Below are positions 3,033-49,168 of a stretch of 49,168 bases of DNA, piece by piece. Location: NCBI GenBank assembly GCA_902812465.1, contig CADDZE010000028.1, positions 1 to 49,168 of the forward strand, given 5' to 3'. The first letter of the stretch is position 1. Each line of letters starts with the position of its first letter. Source of the stretch: Acidobacteriota bacterium. GTDB taxonomy: Bacteria; Acidobacteriota; Terriglobia; UBA7540. The notes beneath the pieces were generated by a model. It ran no database searches. It saw only the letters and a program-made list of their open reading frames with translations, and was not told where the DNA came from. Made by a program: the position numbers and the translations under genes.

Positions 3033-3923
3033 ATGGGTTCCACGCTTAGAGGGGTTCCAGGCCAAACGTCGGTCGTGGCAGGGCAAGGCTTCGATAGCTT
3101 GCTCGAACACCTCAGCCCGAAGCGGCGGGAAATCATGCGTCCGGTGCTCGAGCAGCCGCGCGAGTATGTGCTGCTCACGCTCCGTGGGCTGAGCCGGCGG
3201 TTGCGATTGGATCCCTCTTCGATGGTGCGCATTGTTCGGGGGATGGGGTTCGAGAGCTACGCCGCGTTCCGCCAGTATCTCCATGAGCTGAGTATCGTTG
3301 CGGCGACGCCCCTGGAGGTGATGCAGGCTGACTCGGGTGACTCCAACCTTCCGACTCATCTTCGTGCGTCGTTGGGCCAGGACTTGAAGAATCTGCAGCT
3401 GCTGCGCCAGAGTACCGATTTACCAAGAATCGTCCGGCTTGCGGGCCGCTTGTACCGGGCGCGGCGCATACTCATTCTGGGTGGCGACATGGCTACCAGC
3501 CTGGTCCACTTTCTGGAGTGGAACCTGACGATATTGGGCCTACCCGTTTCGAGCGCTGTCAGCCCTGGTAGTGTGGTCCACCGCGTGCGGACCCTGGGTC
3601 GCTCCGATGTCGTCGTGGCCATCACATTCCGGCGTGGCCTTCGCCAGACGGTCGAAGGGCTGCAGGCAGCTCGGGCCCGCGGCGCCTACTGCGTGGGCAT
3701 TTCGGATACCTACCTCTCACCATTGCATCGCTTTGCCCATGAGTGCTTTCACGCTTCGATCCAAAGCCCGTCGTTTCCAGGATCATACGTGGCCCCGATG
3801 GCACTGCTGAACCTTATCATTGTGGCAACGGCCAACTACCGGCGGTCACGCACGCTCGCCTTGCTGAAAGCCGCCGATGGAGAGCAGCGGCGCGGATTCC
3901 GCTGGTTCAGTGACCACCGTTAG
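3033..3923 (+). CDS. MurR/RpiR-family transcriptional regulator
   Basis: The protein has 296 residues. It begins with an RpiR-type helix-turn-helix domain at about 10-85 (LRRLDPSSMVRIVRGMGF-like segment), in which members bind DNA. A SIS sugar-phosphate-binding domain follows at about 125-265 (RRILILGGDMATSL, then SDVVVAITF). These regulators sense phosphorylated sugars and control sugar or amino-sugar use. It is transcribed away from the Oar-like receptor and sits about 300 bases ahead of the polysaccharide cluster, so either could be a target. The SIS loop reads TFRRGLRQT where many relatives have SxSG/RxxxT, so ligand recognition may differ. No strong ribosome site precedes the ATG, and the first residues are uncertain. 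Confidence 0.85.
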   Translation: MGSTLRGVPGQTSVVAGQGFDSLLEHLSPKRREIMRPVLEQPREYVLLTLRGLSRRLRLDPSSMVRIVRGMGFESYAAFRQYLHELSIVAATPLEVMQADSGDSNLPTHLRASLGQDLKNLQLLRQSTDLPRIVRLAGRLYRARRILILGGDMATSLVHFLEWNLTILGLPVSSAVSPGSVVHRVRTLGRSDVVVAITFRRGLRQTVEGLQAARARGAYCVGISDTYLSPLHRFAHECFHASIQSPSFPGSYVAPMALLNLIIVATANYRRSRTLALLKAADGEQRRGFRWFSDHR

Positions 3924-4028
3924 ACCTTTGCAGGCAGGTGCCGGCGTGCGGCCAGGCTGTGGTCTGGTGCGCCCGGGCGAGGAGGGGTGAAATCGCGAAA
4001 TAGTCTGGAGCATCAGATACGAGTGGTG

Positions 4029-4046
4029 GGTCGGCGCAAGCCGACC
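4029..4046 (+). other. hairpin with GCAA tetraloop in the galE leader
   Basis: GGTCGGC-GCAA-GCCGACC is a perfect 7-bp stem closed by a GNRA tetraloop, about 175 bases before galE. A second small hairpin (GGCGAG-GAT-CTCGCC) lies downstream near 4092-4106. No T-run follows, so a classical terminator is unlikely. No known riboswitch class was recognised in the 297-base gap 3924-4220. Confidence 0.4.
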
Positions 4047-4220
4047 GCCCCCAGGCTGTCTGAGTTCCGAGCCGGGCGGCCGAGGGTGACAAGGCGAGGA
4101 TCTCGCCAGGTCGGCGCTTACCACTGATACAATTGTCGGACGGCCTAGCCCCGCGTCGGTAGCTTGCCAAATCGGGAGCTACGCTGGCTCGGAAAATGAG
4201 CAACAAAGTAGGGGTGGCAG

Positions 4221-5213
4221 ATGAACGTTCTGGTGACGGGTGGAGCGGGCTACATTGGCAGTGTCTGTGCTGAGCAGCTCCTGATGCGGAAGTACCGGGT
4301 CATCGTTTACGACAATTTGTCCGCGGGGCATCGTGCGGCCGTGCCTAAGGGGGCGCAGTTTGTTCGAGGTGATGTGGCTGATGCTCAGTCACTCGCCCGC
4401 ACGTTTCGCCGGTTCAAAATCGACGCGGTGATGCATTTCGCCGCCAATATTCTGGTGGAAGAGTCGGTGCGCGACCCGGCGGTCTTCTACCGGAACAATG
4501 TGGCCGCCAGCCTGACGCTGCTCGAAGTTATGAAGGAGCACGGCATCCTAAACTTGGTGTTTTCGTCCAGCGCCGCGGTTTATGGAGAGGCTCAAACGAT
4601 ACCGATCCCCGAAGATCACCCGAAGGCTCCCATCAATCCTTACGGGGAGACCAAGTTGGTGGTGGAGCGGGCCGCGGAATGGTACCACCGTGCCTACGGA
4701 CTGAAGTGCGTCTGCCTGCGCTATTTCAATGCGGCCGGCGCAACTAGACGACTCGGAGAAGACCACCAGCCGGAGACTCATTTGTTGCCCAGAATCCTGG
4801 ACGCCGCGCTCGATACCGGCCGCGACTTTATCCTGTACGGCGACGACTACCCGACGCCGGACGGCACCTGTGTCCGCGATTTCGTTCATGTGGCGGACAT
4901 CGCGCTGGCGCACGTGATGGCCCTGAAAAAGCTTCCGAAAGTGGGCTTCGCGGTATACAATGTCGGGCTTGGCCGAGGCTATTCCCTACGGGAGGTGGTC
5001 AAGGCTGTTCAAGAGGTTACGCGACGGCCGATGAATGTCACGGTCGGCCCGCGACGCGCTGGCGATCCTGCAAGACTTGTCGCCAGCCCCGAAAAGATCT
5101 GTCGGGAACTGGGGTGGCAGCCTCGATATTCGGACTTAAGGTACATTGTGAGATCCGCTTGGAATTGGAAGCGAAAGCATCCGCACGGTTACGGCTCGCG
5201 CCATGATTGCTAA
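4221..5213 (+). CDS. galE: UDP-glucose 4-epimerase
   Basis: This enzyme interconverts UDP-glucose and UDP-galactose using bound NAD in the cytoplasm, supplying sugar nucleotides for polysaccharide synthesis. Its 330 residues are the usual length for the family. The N-terminus carries the Rossmann motif TGGAGYIG (residues 6-13). The catalytic Ser region is SSSAAVYGE (about 114-122) and the YxxxK pair is in NPYGETK (about 134-140). NAAGA and the C-terminal segment RRAGDPARLVAS are also typical. The ATG follows GGGGTGG with good spacing. It is the first gene of the surface-polysaccharide cluster and lies 96 bases ahead of the initiating transferase. The family also contains epimerases for N-acetylated sugars, so exact substrate preference is not certain. 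Confidence 0.93.
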   Translation: MNVLVTGGAGYIGSVCAEQLLMRKYRVIVYDNLSAGHRAAVPKGAQFVRGDVADAQSLARTFRRFKIDAVMHFAANILVEESVRDPAVFYRNNVAASLTLLEVMKEHGILNLVFSSSAAVYGEAQTIPIPEDHPKAPINPYGETKLVVERAAEWYHRAYGLKCVCLRYFNAAGATRRLGEDHQPETHLLPRILDAALDTGRDFILYGDDYPTPDGTCVRDFVHVADIALAHVMALKKLPKVGFAVYNVGLGRGYSLREVVKAVQEVTRRPMNVTVGPRRAGDPARLVASPEKICRELGWQPRYSDLRYIVRSAWNWKRKHPHGYGSRHDC

Positions 5214-5309
5214 CACCAATCCCTACTCCCCGGCCGCAGGCACCAAGCTGAGCATTTCCAGGCTCGATAGCTAGAGGCTGCTCGTTCTGCGGGCGAAAGT
5301 CCTGAGCCG

Positions 5310-6746
5310 ATGAAGAAGGGTCTAACAACCTACGCGCTTTTACTAGCGGACTTGGCAGCAATCGTTCTCGCTTTTCGCGCCGCCTATGGTCTGCGATATG
5401 CCCTGGATGGGCTCGTCCCCGTTCCTGTTTGGGAGCCCTTCCGCGTCCACTGGCCGGCGATTCTCTTCGGCATCGCGCTTTGGATGCTGCTCTTTCGCAG
5501 CCTTGAAATGGATCGCCTGCAGGGGGGAGCCCTTTCGTTTGCTATTTCGCACCTGGTACCGGCAGAGGCCTTACTGGTCGTCTGCATGCTCGCAGCGTCC
5601 TACCTCGCGCGAATCTATTATTCGCGCCTGCTGCTGGCATTTTTCGCCGTGATCCTCTTGGCGATGCTGGCAGCCAACCGGGCAGCCTACCAAGCTATAC
5701 TGACCTCCCTGAGGCGCTACGGTCTAGGATTGCGCCGGGTCGTTATCGTCGGAAAATCCCCGCTGGCGGTCGAGCTTGCGGAACGCATTCAGAAACATCG
5801 TGAATTGCATTACGAGCTGGTCGGCTTTCTCTTTCCGTCAACGGGTAAGCCGTCGCTAGAACGGTGTGGGCAGACATCGGGCGCTTCCGACGAGATGCTG
5901 GAACAATTAGTCCAGCGGCGGGTGGATGAGTTGATCTTTGCGCTGCCCATTCGGCGCGACACCGAAATCCTGGAGTTTGTCGCGCGATGCCAGAAGGCGG
6001 GAATCGCTGTTAAATTTATTCCAGAATACTACGAACTGCACGCCAGCCGCTTGGAGAGCTTCAGTGTGGACGGCATACCCCTGCTGGAACTGAAAGAGAC
6101 CTCCATTCCGGTGCAATACCGTTTGGTGAAAGCGGCTATGGATTATTCCATCGCTCTTATCCTTCTGATGCTCGGATGGCCGCTGATGGTGGTAATTGGA
6201 GCGGTCCTGGCTATCATTACCAAAGGGCATCCCCTGCGGCGGGAGATCTATGTGGGGCAAGGCGGGCAACCTTTTGTGCTTTATCGCTTCAACGCCTTGC
6301 TGCCCTCTTCCGCGAATGTCCTGGAGGACAGTTGGAAAGCCCGTTTTTGCCGCTTTTTGGTGCGCTATAGCTTCTCAGAGTTGCCCCAGCTTTGGAACGT
6401 TCTGAAGGGCGACATGAGCCTGGTGGGGCCTCGGCCGGAGCCTCCCAACCAAGTCCGGCACTACTCAGCGTGGCATCGCCGGCGTCTGGACCTGAAGCCG
6501 GGAATTACGGGGCTTGCCCAGGTCAAAGGACTGCGGGATTCGGATTCCTTAGATGAGAAGACTAAGCACGATCTGGAATACGCTGCGAATTTCTCTCCGC
6601 TGTTGGACCTTACGCTGGCACTCGCGACGCCCGCAACTTTGCTAAAGAGGCGCAAGAACGGGGGTTCGGGGCGCGAGATGCTCTCGGGTTCCGGAGGGAG
6701 GCGCCCGCGCTCTTGGAGCGAACGGCCATGGGTGCGGCCGGAGTAG
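5310..6746 (+). CDS. polyprenyl-phosphate sugar-phosphate transferase (WcaJ/EpsL type)
   Basis: This integral membrane enzyme would start repeat-unit assembly by moving a hexose-1-phosphate from a UDP-sugar to undecaprenyl phosphate. The 478-residue protein has four to five N-terminal membrane helices (about 5-125). A nucleotide-binding-like segment follows (RRVVIVGKSPLAVELAE, about 145-161). Another hydrophobic anchor is at about 280-300. The C-terminal bacterial sugar transferase domain is recognised by FVLYRFNAL, SELPQLWNVLKGDMSLVGPRP and LKPGITGLAQVKG. The usual KFRTM motif is replaced by YRFNAL. The last 30 residues are Arg-rich and weakly conserved. It stands between galE and the heptose genes, as expected for the initiating enzyme of the cluster. 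The sugar transferred cannot be read from the sequence. Confidence 0.88.
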   Translation: MKKGLTTYALLLADLAAIVLAFRAAYGLRYALDGLVPVPVWEPFRVHWPAILFGIALWMLLFRSLEMDRLQGGALSFAISHLVPAEALLVVCMLAASYLARIYYSRLLLAFFAVILLAMLAANRAAYQAILTSLRRYGLGLRRVVIVGKSPLAVELAERIQKHRELHYELVGFLFPSTGKPSLERCGQTSGASDEMLEQLVQRRVDELIFALPIRRDTEILEFVARCQKAGIAVKFIPEYYELHASRLESFSVDGIPLLELKETSIPVQYRLVKAAMDYSIALILLMLGWPLMVVIGAVLAIITKGHPLRREIYVGQGGQPFVLYRFNALLPSSANVLEDSWKARFCRFLVRYSFSELPQLWNVLKGDMSLVGPRPEPPNQVRHYSAWHRRRLDLKPGITGLAQVKGLRDSDSLDEKTKHDLEYAANFSPLLDLTLALATPATLLKRRKNGGSGREMLSGSGGRRPRSWSERPWVRPE

Positions 6747-43005: not shown

Positions 43006-43971
43006 ATGCGCCTGGTTCACGGTTTTGAAGGTCTGGAGAAACCCCTTCGCGCCAGCGTCGTTAGCGTGGGGAACTTCGATGGCGTTCACTTGGCTCACCA
43101 GCAACTGCTGCGCGGCGTCGTCGAGCACGCCCGGCAGCTCGGCGCCATCGCCGCTGCAGTCACCTTTGAGCCGCATCCCATCAAGGTGCTCGCCCCGGCC
43201 CGGGCTCCCAAGGTGCTGACGCCGCTTCCATTGAAGGCGCGCCTCATCGAAGAGCTAGGGGTGGACTTGCTTGTGGTGTTGAACTTCACTAAGCAGCTGG
43301 CTCACCTGTCGCCGCTCGAATTCATTCGCCTGATGACCCAAGGTCCACTCCAGGCTAAGGCGTTTCATGAAGGACCCAACTTTACTTTCGGGTATCGCCA
43401 GGCCGGCAACGCTCGAGTGCTCGAAGAACTGGGAAGCCAGGAAGGCTTTGCCGTACGTATCGTGCCGGCGATCACCGTGCGGGGCCGACAGGTGTCGAGC
43501 ACGTGCATCCGGGAGCTGATCAACCAGGGAAAGGTGCACATCGCCTGCCGTCTTCTCGGACGCCCTTTTTCCAACCATGGTCCGATTGTCGCCGGGCTGG
43601 GGGTCGGCCGTCGCCATACGGTGCCCACACTTAACCTGGCACCCGTCGAGGAGCTGCTTCCCCAGGAAGGGGTATATGTGACGCGGACGCTCGCGGCGTG
43701 CGAGAGCTACGACTCGGTCACCAATGTGGGACACAAGCCGACGTTCGGCGAGCACCGGGTAACGGTGGAGTCCTATCTGCTGCAATTTTCCGGAGAGCTG
43801 CAGGCGGAGGAAATGACTGTCCAATATCTCTTCCGGCTGCGCGACGAAATCAAGTTCCAGAATCCCGCGATGCTCAAGCTTCAGATCGAAGAGGATGCAC
43901 GGCGGTCGCTGAAGTTCTTCCGCCTGTTCCGCACCCTGGCGCGAAGTCGGCAAACCGTGGCCCGGGGTTGA
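43006..43971 (+). CDS. ribF: bifunctional riboflavin kinase/FAD synthetase
   Basis: RibF phosphorylates riboflavin to FMN and then adenylates it to FAD. The 321-residue protein has the N-terminal nucleotidyltransferase domain (about 1-185), with VGNFDGVHLAHQQLL and FHEGPNFTFGYRQAGN. The C-terminal flavokinase domain (about 185-310) has NHGPIVAGLGVGRRHTVPT, TNVGHKPTFGE and FRLRDEIKF. The usual GFPTANL reads HTVPTLNL, a mild divergence. It ends the DUF1844-MBL-ribF unit. It lies about 4.6 kb from an FMN riboswitch that controls another gene, but shows no such element itself. Confidence 0.95.
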   Translation: MRLVHGFEGLEKPLRASVVSVGNFDGVHLAHQQLLRGVVEHARQLGAIAAAVTFEPHPIKVLAPARAPKVLTPLPLKARLIEELGVDLLVVLNFTKQLAHLSPLEFIRLMTQGPLQAKAFHEGPNFTFGYRQAGNARVLEELGSQEGFAVRIVPAITVRGRQVSSTCIRELINQGKVHIACRLLGRPFSNHGPIVAGLGVGRRHTVPTLNLAPVEELLPQEGVYVTRTLAACESYDSVTNVGHKPTFGEHRVTVESYLLQFSGELQAEEMTVQYLFRLRDEIKFQNPAMLKLQIEEDARRSLKFFRLFRTLARSRQTVARG

Positions 43972-45148: not shown

Positions 45149-48100
45149 CTACCAATTCAAGCGTAAGGAGAACTGGATCTGCCTGGCGTTCTGCGCCGAA
45201 CTGATCCGTCCGAAATTGGAGGTGCCGACGATCAGCCCGGGGCGGTCGAAATTCGGATGATTGGTGAGGTTGAAGCAATCGGTGCGAAACACGAGTGCCG
45301 TGCGCTCGGAGAAGCGCCACTGTCGCAGCAGGCTCAAGTCCCAGTCCGTCAGGCCGGGTCCGGTGATGACGTTGCGGCCTTCGTTGCCCGGGATACTGAA
45401 TGCTCCCTGCGAGTCAAAGAAGACGGGCGGAGGCTGGAAGGCTGCGGTGCTAAACCAGCGATTCGGGCTGCGCTGGCCTGGCGGCAGATTCGGATTGGCC
45501 ACGAGATCTGGACGGTCCGTGCCGCTCGACTGGGTGCCGCTAAGCGAGGTGGCCAGCAATGCGGTGAGGGGCTGGCCACTCTGCAGGGTGAGAATGTTGG
45601 CCCATTGCCAATCCCGCAACAGAAAAACGGCGAGGCGTTGGTGCAGCCAGCGGCGTCCTGGACCCAAGGGCAGCGCCCAGGTATTCGAGAAGACCAAGCG
45701 GTGGCGAATGTCAAAATCTGAGAGACCCCTTTCAGCTTTCAGGTTGTAGTTATCCTGCGGTTGGTTGGTCCCCTGCAGGCCTGAAGCATCGTCGATCGAC
45801 TTACCGAAGGTGTAAGCCGCCTCAAACGACAGTCCGGAAGCAAACCGTCGCTGCAGACGCATGATTAGACCGTTGTAGTTCGAATTCACGTCCGTGGCAC
45901 GCACAAAGTAATTCGATCCTGGCTGGGGATGGTAGCCGCGGCGCAGCGCGGGATGATCGTCCTGGGGAGGAAGATTGGGCAAACCCTGATTCTGCAGGGC
46001 CCGGCGCGGCAGCTTGTGCCCTTCTGAGCCCGCGTAGGCTAGGGAAAGCACAGTGTCACGACTCAGCTGCCGCTCAAGGGACAGGCTCCATTGGTAAACG
46101 TACCCGTTACGCAGGTTCGGTGGTGATGACACGCCGGAAGGAGCCGTGTTGCCCAGCTGGTAAGCCAGCGCATAGGTGAGCAGGGGAGGCGCAAACGCCT
46201 GCCCGCAAGCGCCCGGTCCGAAGAAGCGGCAAAGGTCGAGTCCGAACAGCGACTCCGATATCGGTGCGCTCAGCCGCGTTTCGGCCGCGTAATCAAGCTC
46301 GTTGAGCGAGTTAAAAACCCCAAAGCTGCCGCGAAGGGAGGTCTTGGCATCGCCGGTCAGGTCGTAAGCGAAGCCTAAGCGCGGAGCCCAGTTGGACCAA
46401 TCCGGCCGAATCAAGGAGGCGGGTAATCCTGCCGCCTGGGAAGTGATGAACTGAAGCCCGAACTTTTGTTGAAGTTCCAGCGTTAGTGGATTGCTGATCA
46501 GGCGCTGCGCCTGCCCCAGATCGTTACGGACGATAAAGCGCAGCGCGTCACTAGGATCGACAATCGAGCCGCGGCCATCAGCGTTTAAGGGCGGCGAGTA
46601 GAACTCTTCGCGCAACCCGTAAGTTAGGGTCAGCCGCCGCGTGGCGTGAAATTCATCCGTGACGTAGGCACCGAAGTAGTTCACGCGATCGTTGCCGCCG
46701 GAGTTACCGGCCTGAGCAAACGACAAGAAGGGGCGCCCCAGCAGGAAGTCGGAGAAGGCAGTGCCGGACACCGACCCGAATCCGTCGTTAAAGCTAAACA
46801 CGCCTTGCCCAAAGTTCTCCACCAAGTAGAACAGCCGCAGCCGCCGGAAGTCGGCGCCCAGCTGGATGCTGTGACGCCCATGAATCCAGACGAGGTTGTC
46901 GGCCACCTGGAAGGTGTTGTTCTTGCGAATCTGCGGCTGGAAGATGTCGCTGTCACCCAGGTAGGCATACCCGGGAATGTCGATGGCGGGAATGCCATGG
47001 TTCGTCGAGCCGGGGGCGCGGGCGATTCCCAGGGATTCGAGGAAGCCGCTGTGGATATTCTGCCCTTCCTTCGTTCCCAGAAAGTAGTCGTACCCCAGGC
47101 GCAGGTCGTTGCCCAGGGTAGGCCTCAAGGCGGATGTAAGCCCGAGCGCCAGGTTGCGGCCGGAGTCCGTCTTGCGGGTCCCGAACCCGGCGGGTGCCGA
47201 GGGATTCAGGGCAAAAGGATTCGAGACAAAGGGAAAGAGTTGGGCACTGCCGAAGTAGATGAAGCGGCCGAACAGCTGGTGGCGCTCCCCTACCCGATGA
47301 TCCAGCCGGACGGTGAACTGATCGCTGGCGAGGTCGTGCAACCCAACGTTGATGTCGTTGTTCTGGCCAGGCGGAGCGCCGGGCCGATTGGGGAGCGGGA
47401 CGCGTGCCAGGATGGCGCGCGAGACGGGATCGATCCTGTCCTCGGGGATCATGTTTCCGGGGAAGGGCTGGCCGGTGGCCGGATCGATAATGGCAGGGAA
47501 GGGCCGTCCCGTGAGTGGGTTGGTACCGCTAAAGTCCCCTTGATGCTCCGCGGCGGTGGGCAGCAATGTGGTGTTTGTGACGCTCTGGCGGATGCGGAAT
47601 CCCTCGTAGTTGCCAAAGAAGAACGTGTGGTCGCGGCGCAGCGGTCCCCCGAGCGAGGCGCCGAACTGGTTCTGGCGGAAAGGCGGGATGGGCCGGCTGG
47701 GATCGTCAAAGAAATTTCTAGCGTCAAACGCGCTGTTGCGCAGGTACTCGTACGCAGTCCCTGCCAGGCGATTCGAGCCTGCGCGCGTTGCAATCTCCAC
47801 CTGTGCGCCGGAAACGATGCCCTGCGCGGCGGTATAGGAATTTTCGACGACGCGAAATTCATGAATCGCATCCAGGGAGGGGTTCACGGTCACGCTGTAG
47901 GCGAATGGCTCCATGATCGTCACACCGTCGAGGGTGAAGTTGTTGCGCTCCGAGCGCTGCCCGTTCACCGAGAATCCGAGACCGAGGGCGGCAGTGTTGA
48001 ACTGCTGGGTGGCGCCGTTGGGGTAAGGCGGCACGGCGCCGGCGGCCACCAGAGCCAGCTGCGAGAACTGGCGGCCATTGAGCGGCAGCAGGCTGACACG

Positions 48101-48559
48101 CCGGTTGTCGATCTCCTCGCTGGTGGTGGGCGATGTGATCTCCACCAGAGGCGGCCGCGCATCAATCGTCAGCTTCGTTTGCGCGCGCGCGAGCTGGAGC
48201 GAAATGTCCTGGCGCAGGGTCTGCCCCACCTCGAGCACCAGCCCACGGATAATCCGCGCCGCAAAGCCTGGATGCTCCGCACGAAGCTCGTAGGTTCCAA
48301 TAGGCAGGAACGGAAAACTGTAGAAGCCCTTCTCATCGGTCAGCGTCTCGCGCACTTGGCCTGTGGCGGGACAGGTCAGGACTATGCGTGTGTGCGCCAC
48401 CGTCGCGCCCGAAGGGTCCAAAACCACGCCTTGAATGTTGCTATTCCAGTCTTGCGCCAACAACGCCCGCGCTGCGGCCAACAGAACGGCCAGCCCTATC
48501 CATGACATGGGAACAACTTGCGTCCGAAGCCGCCGAGCAGGAGGCAAATAGCCGGGCAT
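45149..48559 (-). CDS. Oar-like TonB-dependent outer-membrane receptor under FMN riboswitch control
   Basis: This complete 1136-residue outer-membrane receptor has a signal peptide at about 15-36 (SWIGLAVLLAAARALLAQ). A carboxypeptidase-regulatory-like domain spans about 42-125 (IQGVVLDPSGATVAHTR, GFYSFPFLPIGTYELRAEHP). A TonB plug lies at about 145-275 (LLPLNGRQFSQLALV, VNGQRSERNNFTLDGVTI). A long beta-barrel runs to the end, RIQFSLRLNW, with the expected terminal aromatic residue. Receptors of this type are usually annotated as sugar or peptide importers, but few substrates are known. GAGGTG lies five bases before the ATG. The FMN riboswitch at 48686-48898 on the same strand means expression should respond to FMN. 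The simplest inference is uptake of riboflavin, FMN or a related compound, although other flavin-linked roles are possible. Confidence 0.93.
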   Translation of the reverse strand: MPGYLPPARRLRTQVVPMSWIGLAVLLAAARALLAQDWNSNIQGVVLDPSGATVAHTRIVLTCPATGQVRETLTDEKGFYSFPFLPIGTYELRAEHPGFAARIIRGLVLEVGQTLRQDISLQLARAQTKLTIDARPPLVEITSPTTSEEIDNRRVSLLPLNGRQFSQLALVAAGAVPPYPNGATQQFNTAALGLGFSVNGQRSERNNFTLDGVTIMEPFAYSVTVNPSLDAIHEFRVVENSYTAAQGIVSGAQVEIATRAGSNRLAGTAYEYLRNSAFDARNFFDDPSRPIPPFRQNQFGASLGGPLRRDHTFFFGNYEGFRIRQSVTNTTLLPTAAEHQGDFSGTNPLTGRPFPAIIDPATGQPFPGNMIPEDRIDPVSRAILARVPLPNRPGAPPGQNNDINVGLHDLASDQFTVRLDHRVGERHQLFGRFIYFGSAQLFPFVSNPFALNPSAPAGFGTRKTDSGRNLALGLTSALRPTLGNDLRLGYDYFLGTKEGQNIHSGFLESLGIARAPGSTNHGIPAIDIPGYAYLGDSDIFQPQIRKNNTFQVADNLVWIHGRHSIQLGADFRRLRLFYLVENFGQGVFSFNDGFGSVSGTAFSDFLLGRPFLSFAQAGNSGGNDRVNYFGAYVTDEFHATRRLTLTYGLREEFYSPPLNADGRGSIVDPSDALRFIVRNDLGQAQRLISNPLTLELQQKFGLQFITSQAAGLPASLIRPDWSNWAPRLGFAYDLTGDAKTSLRGSFGVFNSLNELDYAAETRLSAPISESLFGLDLCRFFGPGACGQAFAPPLLTYALAYQLGNTAPSGVSSPPNLRNGYVYQWSLSLERQLSRDTVLSLAYAGSEGHKLPRRALQNQGLPNLPPQDDHPALRRGYHPQPGSNYFVRATDVNSNYNGLIMRLQRRFASGLSFEAAYTFGKSIDDASGLQGTNQPQDNYNLKAERGLSDFDIRHRLVFSNTWALPLGPGRRWLHQRLAVFLLRDWQWANILTLQSGQPLTALLATSLSGTQSSGTDRPDLVANPNLPPGQRSPNRWFSTAAFQPPPVFFDSQGAFSIPGNEGRNVITGPGLTDWDLSLLRQWRFSERTALVFRTDCFNLTNHPNFDRPGLIVGTSNFGRISSAQNARQIQFSLRLNW

Positions 48560-48677
48560 GTGTCACCTCAAAGCTAAGCTGCTCGGGGCAGAGACAAGGC
48601 AGGCAGACACAAGTCCGCGCACCAACGCCCTTGGCCTCAGACGCTCTCTCTGTGAGCGACACCTACGGCGCGGACTT
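48559..48677 (-). promoter_or_regulatory. candidate expression platform of the FMN riboswitch
   Basis: Between aptamer and start codon, AAGTCCGCGC (48668-48677) and GCGCGGACTT (48611-48620) on the minus strand form a perfect 10-bp stem. Just after it, TGTGTC (48606-48611) is complementary to GACACA (48559-48564), which covers the A of the start codon and the base after GAGGTG. One plausible reading is that FMN binding shifts pairing so that the start region is masked. No T-run follows the long stem, so translational control looks more likely than termination. Mechanism is inference. Confidence 0.45.
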
Positions 48678-48685
48678 ACCTGACG

Positions 48686-48898
48686 GACCTTCTACCATTC
48701 GGACTTTACCGCCGGCCCCGGAGTCTCACCGGATCGTGGGGTAGGAAAGGCGCTGGCTTCAAACCGCTAGAACCCAGCCATCCGTTGCGGCGCGGCACAA
48801 CCTGCGCCGCCAATTTGTGGTGCCTTTCACTCCCCTCGCGGGCTTTACCGCCGATCGGGAATTGGGAGGTTCGTCTCCCTCACCCTGCCCCGAAGGTC
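48686..48898 (-). promoter_or_regulatory. FMN riboswitch (RFN element)
   Basis: Read on the minus strand this is a clear FMN-binding aptamer. P1 pairs GACCTTC (48892-48898) with GAAGGTC (48686-48692). The 5' core is CCTTCGGGGCAGGGTG, identical to classical RFN elements. CGGCGGTAAAGCCCGCGAG follows, then GATCCGGTGAGACTCC, GGGGCCGGCGGTAAAGTCCG and AATGGTAGAAGG, all in consensus order. Two arms are enlarged. A GGGAG/CCTCCC hairpin is inserted in P2, and a roughly 100-base arm (48736-48836) replaces the short variable P4 loop. The element directs the Oar-like receptor that starts 126 bases downstream. High FMN normally turns such genes off. Confidence 0.95.
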
Positions 48899-48907
48899 AC
48901 CGCCACC

Positions 48908-48916
48908 AGTCTACCA
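48908..48916 (-). promoter_or_regulatory. extended -10 promoter just upstream of the FMN riboswitch
   Basis: On the minus strand TGG-TAGACT forms an extended -10 (TGn plus TAGACT, with TAGACT at 48908-48913). The expected transcription start, about seven bases further on, falls right at the 5' edge of the aptamer. No clear -35 is seen, as is common with extended -10 promoters. The 250 bases between here and the window end carry no recognisable gene. Confidence 0.45.
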
Positions 48917-49168
48917 TGTGCCAATGCCGGGAGAGAAGCGTTTGCGGGCGTCCACGGGATTGGTGACGGGGGAGGTGCGGGGCTGGGGCCAACGAGCAGG
49001 TCCTGGTGAGAGAGCCCACCGCCTCAGAGCATCGGCAGAGCCCGCGCCGGGCGGAGGCGTGCGTCGGGCGGGCAAAGCCTCAGATGGCGAGAATTTCCGA
49101 AACGTGGCAGACCGGGTGATACCGTTCACACGCTCGAGACGTTCCACACGCTGCGAGCTATTCGGGAC

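Follow-up and report, generated by a model that had tools for sequence, protein, structure and literature searches.

FMN riboswitch, leader and receptor gene in the window

The window, that is the whole stretch of 49,168 nucleotides of Acidobacteriota DNA that was analysed, carries on its minus strand an FMN riboswitch followed by the gene of a large outer-membrane protein. The features of this locus are as follows:

43006 to 43971, plus strand: ribF, bifunctional riboflavin kinase/FAD synthetase (Pfam PF06574 and PF01687, FAD_syn and Flavokinase; NCBIfam TIGR00083)
45149 to 48559, minus strand: Oar-like TonB-dependent-receptor-type outer-membrane protein of 1136 aa, putative flavin receptor (CarboxypepD_reg and OMP_b-brl_4)
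48560 to 48682, minus strand: expression platform, from the aptamer to the start codon (ViennaRNA folds)
48582 to 48593, minus strand: putative anti-aptamer strand CUCUGCCCCGAG, complementary to the aptamer 5' arm UUCGGGGCAGGG
48683 to 48901, minus strand: aptamer of the FMN riboswitch (RF00050, RFN element), full length, its variable arm enlarged by a long insert (cmscan)
48905 to 48930, minus strand: promoter-like -10 region (TGGTAGACT), directly upstream of the aptamer (by eye only)

Using cmscan (Infernal, Rfam) we found that RF00050 matches positions 48901-48683 of the minus strand with 79.2 bits against a gathering threshold of 66.2 (E 2e-16). The match spans the full model (positions 1-138), and RF00050 is the only RNA family above threshold within the window. 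All 7 of the 7 pairs of the closing helix GACCTTC/GAAGGTC are formed, all the listed core motifs were found, and the aptamer reaches 219 nt because its variable arm holds a long insert. The riboswitch is the only one for FMN in the genome (G000, 3.9 Mb, 98.6% complete). An initial annotation had predicted here an RFN element with the full conserved core and a perfect P1, followed by a complete 1136-aa Oar-like receptor, and both predictions held; a covariance-model score below threshold would have refuted the first. Only its left coordinate needs correction, as 48559 is the start of the receptor gene and the aptamer ends at 48683.

Long inserts were seen in the variable arm of the window's aptamer (about 48740-48830) and at the same place in relatives, many of which carry there a AGTGACAAGTGACGAGTGA-like tract together with its complement, resembling a mobile hairpin-like repeat. 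In relatives scoring below the Rfam cut-off, the FMN matches began within or after such inserts.

The receptor is a complete open reading frame of 1136 codons (48559-45149) and the next gene on the riboswitch strand. Its barrel domain, OMP_b-brl_4 (PF25183), scores 757 bits over 838 model positions and covers residues 258-1129. Among ten orthologs, the Pfam Plug domain was matched in three, at E 0.15 or worse, and the stretch before the barrel is conserved; six TonB_C proteins above the cut-off are encoded in the genome. When the receptor was used in a profile search against the Protein Data Bank, nothing matched, and an AlphaFold model based on 11 aligned sequences (mean pLDDT 35, pTM 0.27) was too poor and was not used. 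The name "Oar-like" is itself no evidence of function, because the family is very large and has other functions, and Oar-type receptors are abundant here, with dozens of candidates per genome.

The leader between the aptamer and the receptor start is 123 nt long, contains no gene and ends with GAGGTGACACATG, and GAGGTG precedes the ATG of the receptor. A TGCTAnAnT-like motif was recognized by eye at the place of the promoter-like site in most relatives (leader sequences of 24 loci). Folded by itself in ViennaRNA, the platform has its Shine-Dalgarno region (GGUGUCGCUC...GAGGUGACAC) paired. The segment CUCUGCCCCGAG can form 12 consecutive pairs with the aptamer 5' arm UUCGGGGCAGGG, which was equalled in none of 300 dinucleotide shuffles, and an anti-arm-like segment is present approximately 70-110 nt past the aptamer in most leaders, irrespective of whether the receptor or riboflavin (rib) genes follow. 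The presence of this segment is thus shown.

In five genomes (G005, G011, G022, G028 and G032) the arm reads UUCAGGGC and the facing anti-arm position is U instead of C. This covariation amounts to an A-T/G-C exchange at one position, which the Rfam model leaves unpaired in the aptamer, and four of the five genomes belong to one genus. We regard the segment and this paired exchange as good evidence for a functional switch in the leader of the receptor. The arm/anti-arm result rests on a shuffle-controlled scan that accepted only uninterrupted helices, and it is not individually significant in every leader. A rescoring with a fixed length of 15 nt tolerated mismatches and placed several of the best positions elsewhere, and was not relied on. 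In the window's leader the Shine-Dalgarno region was paired in both modelled states, with or without the anti-arm segment (ViennaRNA), so that folds of single sequences decide neither the direction of switching nor between translation and termination. The aptamer sits in a leader with an expression platform, and the downstream gene is flavin-related by association only. Altogether, the RF00050 element probably acts as a functional FMN sensor in front of the receptor, with FMN binding and the change in expression being inferred in the absence of expression data.

Riboswitch cargo and riboflavin synthesis genes among relatives

The locus was compared across 61 genomes comprising the window's family (f1) and mates from its order and class. 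An FMN riboswitch was found in 24 of these, every one within the family. It is followed by the receptor ortholog in 13 genomes of 8 genera, with approximately 60-72% identity to the window's receptor; two of these receptor genes (G007 and G027) run off their contigs, and in G002 a frame change breaks the gene apart. The recurrence in 13 genomes of 8 genera excludes chance as the cause of the riboswitch-receptor order, and the conservation of the riboswitch in front of the receptor is shown. In ten other genomes, all rib-positive, the riboswitch precedes the riboflavin operon ribE-ribH-ribBA-ribD, the evidence in G016 being only a ribE fragment at the contig end. In the remaining genome (G010) the contig terminates after the riboswitch.

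Elsewhere in the phylum few genomes carry an FMN riboswitch (7 of 395 further genomes that were sampled). Six of these riboswitches are above the cut-off and lie in front of ribB(A) or ribD; the seventh match is weak (26.8 bits). A riboswitch before the receptor is therefore a trait of one Acidobacteriota family, as far as sampled. The arrangement proposed in the initial annotation thus recurs in relatives, where its absence would have counted against it, and its generality is narrowed to this family and is not phylum-wide. The GTDB genomes with orthologous loci are named 'Acidobacteria gp13' or are Terriglobia MAGs, and several originate from soil depths, fen and bog.

The receptor orthologs share 64-75% identity in 16 family genomes, together with a fragment of 60% in G027, and no receptor homolog of more than 40% identity was found outside this group in the sampled relatives. 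In a tree with two outside paralogs the group forms one long-stemmed clade. Paralogs in family f6 (approximately 36-40% identity) were considered as flavin receptors and rejected, as their genomes are rib-positive and no FMN riboswitch was found there; this rests on the genome-level riboswitch search, without a separate RNA search of the paralog loci. In G041 and G056 the f6 paralogs adjoin an isochorismatase-like gene, as judged by eye.

A locus without the aptamer was observed in G019 (L174, C375:1-6000, around 1100-2200), in which the receptor, the EamA transporter gene described below, an APC permease gene and the anti-arm segment are kept and the FMN aptamer is missing after the promoter-like site; a VapBC-like toxin-antitoxin pair lies upstream (by eye). 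The aptamer may have been deleted naturally or lost through a collapse of the assembly; G019 is an incomplete MAG.

Searches for RibH, RibB and RibE were concordant, with all three present in 39 of the 61 genomes. The receptor ortholog occurs in 17 family genomes, and ribE, ribH and ribB are absent from all 17, whereas none of the 15 rib-positive family genomes has the receptor. The family thus divides into 17 receptor-positive/rib-negative genomes, 15 with the reverse pattern, 5 with neither and 0 with both; the five genomes with neither are only 58-80% complete. Among genomes that are at least 90% complete, the corresponding numbers are 8, 11, 0 and 0. The association gave a Fisher p of 3e-6, uncorrected for kinship. 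In a ribF tree the receptor-bearing genomes do not form one clade (AU p 0.0065; single marker). However, formal independence of the association cannot be claimed, because this tree gives only 4 independent pairs.

The window's genome has no match to PF00885, PF00926 or PF00677. The possibility that the rib genes are missing as a MAG artefact was rejected on completeness, the product of the gaps being approximately 2e-18. RibD was not found in the scanned rib-negative genomes, which had at best deaminase-like matches of about 63 bits, below the cut-off, as compared to at least 326 bits in rib-positive family members. In contrast, ribF is retained in 14 of the 17 receptor-bearing genomes although the synthesis genes are lost; this retention is shown. 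In the window, ribF scores 212.6 bits against TIGR00083, above the cut-off, so the nearby ribF of the initial annotation held as well, on the strand opposite to the receptor. The receptor-bearing bacteria most probably are riboflavin auxotrophs that need to import flavin, although this is inferred from sequence alone.

Five genomes of two genera (G004, G013, G021, G026 and G030; L163-L167) have a complete rib operon without an FMN riboswitch, even at E values up to 1, and nest among the receptor-bearing genomes in the ribF tree. These genera possibly regained riboflavin synthesis or lost its regulation.

The EamA transporter and distant homologs

On the opposite side of the riboswitch, and transcribed away from it, lies a gene for an EamA/DMT transporter (PF00892) of approximately 320 aa wherever the contig is long enough. 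Its ortholog was detected in 18 genomes of the family, every one of them rib-negative; the rib-positive genomes lack it without exception. It is divergent to the receptor gene wherever one contig holds both. The complementarity between the receptor and EamA genes on one side and the rib genes on the other is shown. There are two exceptions, both incomplete MAGs: G018 has no EamA match and G035 no receptor. In the window's genome the EamA gene opens another contig (C37), where it occupies 3-908 and lacks its N-terminus (G001 has a complete ortholog), and the upstream end of the window is 267 nt away from the riboswitch; a contig break within the arrangement is plausible, since C37 starting with EamA fits as the continuation of the window's end. 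No riboswitch was detected before EamA itself. The best solved relative of the EamA partner by sequence is LicB, with a weak match (E 0.004).

In G035 (L177, C43:5000-11054, 3849-5501), a MAG that is 58% complete, the EamA gene adjoins the small gene that usually lies downstream of the receptor, with the riboswitch and the receptor missing in between.

The gene order in several receptor genomes is APC permease, EamA (reverse), riboswitch and receptor. The rib-positive G016 has the same APC permease, then the riboswitch and then ribE, without EamA. These two orders are most simply explained by a swap of cargo behind a riboswitch that did not move. The APC-type permease (approximately 755 aa, named by eye) lies 3-4 kb upstream of the riboswitch at L031, L041, L047, L027, L029 and others, and is a conserved neighbour both in receptor genomes and in G016.

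A more distant pair was found in another class. In G431 (L179, C53:33000-43500) a receptor with 47% identity is followed within 2.5 kb by an EamA gene (51% identical). There is no FMN riboswitch at this pair, and a riboswitch-led rib gene is located elsewhere in that genome, whose bacterium makes riboflavin as judged by sequence. The cluster also includes a GrdB-like selenoprotein, a DeoC/LacD aldolase and a Zn dehydrogenase, as well as an FGGY-type kinase and an aldehyde dehydrogenase (the last two by eye from the translations). G189 (C97; L181) has a receptor homolog without an FMN riboswitch, preceded by a luciferase-like monooxygenase. A SECIS-like element of the catabolic cluster reached 35 bits, below the cut-off of 38.

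Because the pair co-occurs in a distant class too, the receptor and EamA are probably partners; their cooperation in the window's family is likely and remains an inference. The pair in G431 lacks the riboswitch and belongs to a catabolic cluster, so flavin may not have been the ancestral substrate and need not be carried by the wider family.

Proposed flavin uptake route and its alternatives

The interpretation that we favour is that a riboflavin-auxotrophic lineage swapped the cargo of its FMN riboswitch from synthesis to TonB-dependent uptake of riboflavin, FMN or FAD via the receptor and EamA. We regard this as likely, with the substrate and the repression by FMN inferred, as no uptake, binding or expression data are available. 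In this model riboflavin, FMN or FAD would cross the outer membrane via the Oar-type receptor, energised by TonB, and then the inner membrane via the divergently encoded EamA/DMT transporter, after which RibF would convert imported riboflavin to FMN and FAD. The riboswitch would tune the outer-membrane entry step. When FMN is scarce, the aptamer would be empty, its 5' arm would pair with CUGCCCCGA before the start codon and the receptor would be made. With ample FMN, the closed aptamer would release the CUGCCCCGA segment and expression would drop. During evolution the riboswitch would have retained its position and switching parts and exchanged one cargo, the ribE-ribH-ribBA-ribD operon, for another, the receptor.

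TonB-dependent flavin uptake had already been suggested in the initial annotation and is supported here, with the substrate and the direction of regulation still inferred. Support beyond that annotation comes from the confinement of the receptor to genomes without ribE, ribH and ribB and from its pairing with EamA. The 842 FMN riboswitches that a survey recorded across 1133 genomes stood for the most part in front of genes for riboflavin synthesis or transport (PMC4418817), so the transfer of a flavin role from the riboswitch to the gene it precedes has a good record.

The strongest alternative makes the receptor a bystander. After deletion of the rib operon, the orphan riboswitch would have landed before an unrelated receptor, for instance for a sugar, peptide or siderophore, and the flavin control would be an accident or a neutral relic. 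In favour of this, Oar-type receptors are very numerous, with their dozens of candidates per genome, and a related receptor/EamA pair sits in a riboswitch-less catabolic cluster of another class. However, the receptor was no pre-existing neighbour, as its ortholog is missing from rib-positive relatives. Unlike a relic, the aptamer and anti-arm are conserved across 8 genera at 64-75% receptor identity, and the distribution of the EamA gene parallels that of the receptor. Moreover, flavin has to be imported where the rib genes are missing, and it is the receptor gene that bears an FMN switch. We therefore consider this explanation unlikely.

Less probable still is that the substrate of the pair is something other than riboflavin, FMN or FAD, either a relative of the flavins or an analogue active on the riboswitch (for example a degradation product, a deazaflavin or a roseoflavin-like compound), or that flavins are taken up as electron shuttles and not as a vitamin. 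FMN riboswitches tolerate analogues, and sequence cannot reveal the substrate. However, a cell without ribE, ribH and ribB depends on isoalloxazine supplied ready-made, and it has kept ribF, whose product acts on riboflavin. Export or secretion by the receptor, with the flavin control reflecting another need, draws on the description of Myxococcus Oar in the TonB-dependent secretion of the protease PopC (PMC11658791) and is very unlikely, as the pairing with an inner-membrane EamA and the occurrence only in rib-negative genomes fit import.

In the favoured reading, the locus resembles the ribU, ribM, impX, ribN, ribXY and ribZ riboswitches, in which the same RF00050 aptamer and an FMN-sensing leader precede a putative flavin importer. 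The transporters in Table 1 of PMC4418817 are inner-membrane or periplasmic parts without an outer-membrane receptor, unlike that of the window, and the cargo in this 2015 survey consisted only of synthesis genes, inner-membrane or periplasmic transporters and two oddities. RibN and ImpX are among the known riboflavin importers of bacteria, which in the papers searched are systems of the inner membrane or the periplasm, and RibN was reported from Proteobacteria only (PMC4418817). RibN belongs to the DMT transporters, as does the EamA partner, for which only EamA (PF00892) membership is shown and not a kinship to RibN.

Similarly to the window, vitamin riboswitches before TonB-dependent receptors have been described for cobalamin (PMC5756330) and, with a putative thiamine receptor, for TPP (PMC10409787). 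These cases differ in the vitamin and in the receptor family, that of the window being Oar-type (PF25183). The window's receptor shares with Myxococcus xanthus Oar and the Acidobacteriota Oar-like proteins a carboxypeptidase-regulatory domain followed by a large barrel; Oar itself is known to have this architecture. Oar is tied to protease secretion (PMC11658791), whereas the window's ortholog group is a separate long-stemmed clade.

In the open-access literature that we searched (subscription journals and preprints were outside its scope) we found no case of TonB-dependent uptake of riboflavin or other flavins and no description of how flavins pass the outer membrane, and flavin goes unmentioned in a review of TonB-dependent substrates from 2024 (PMC11658791). 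The earlier claim that flavin uptake is undescribed for this receptor family therefore held within this literature, in which the riboswitch and the transporter superfamily are already known, and the vitamin and the pairing are new. The receptor would be the first TonB-dependent outer-membrane receptor for flavin and would, together with a dedicated EamA transporter, complete flavin import across two membranes; this is the likely interpretation, made without uptake or binding data.

If true, one more vitamin would be added to the substrates of TonB-dependent receptors, and the riboswitch would have kept its ligand while its cargo shifted from synthesis to uptake. It would also predict that this uncultured soil and peat lineage depends on flavins, which may be useful for its cultivation.
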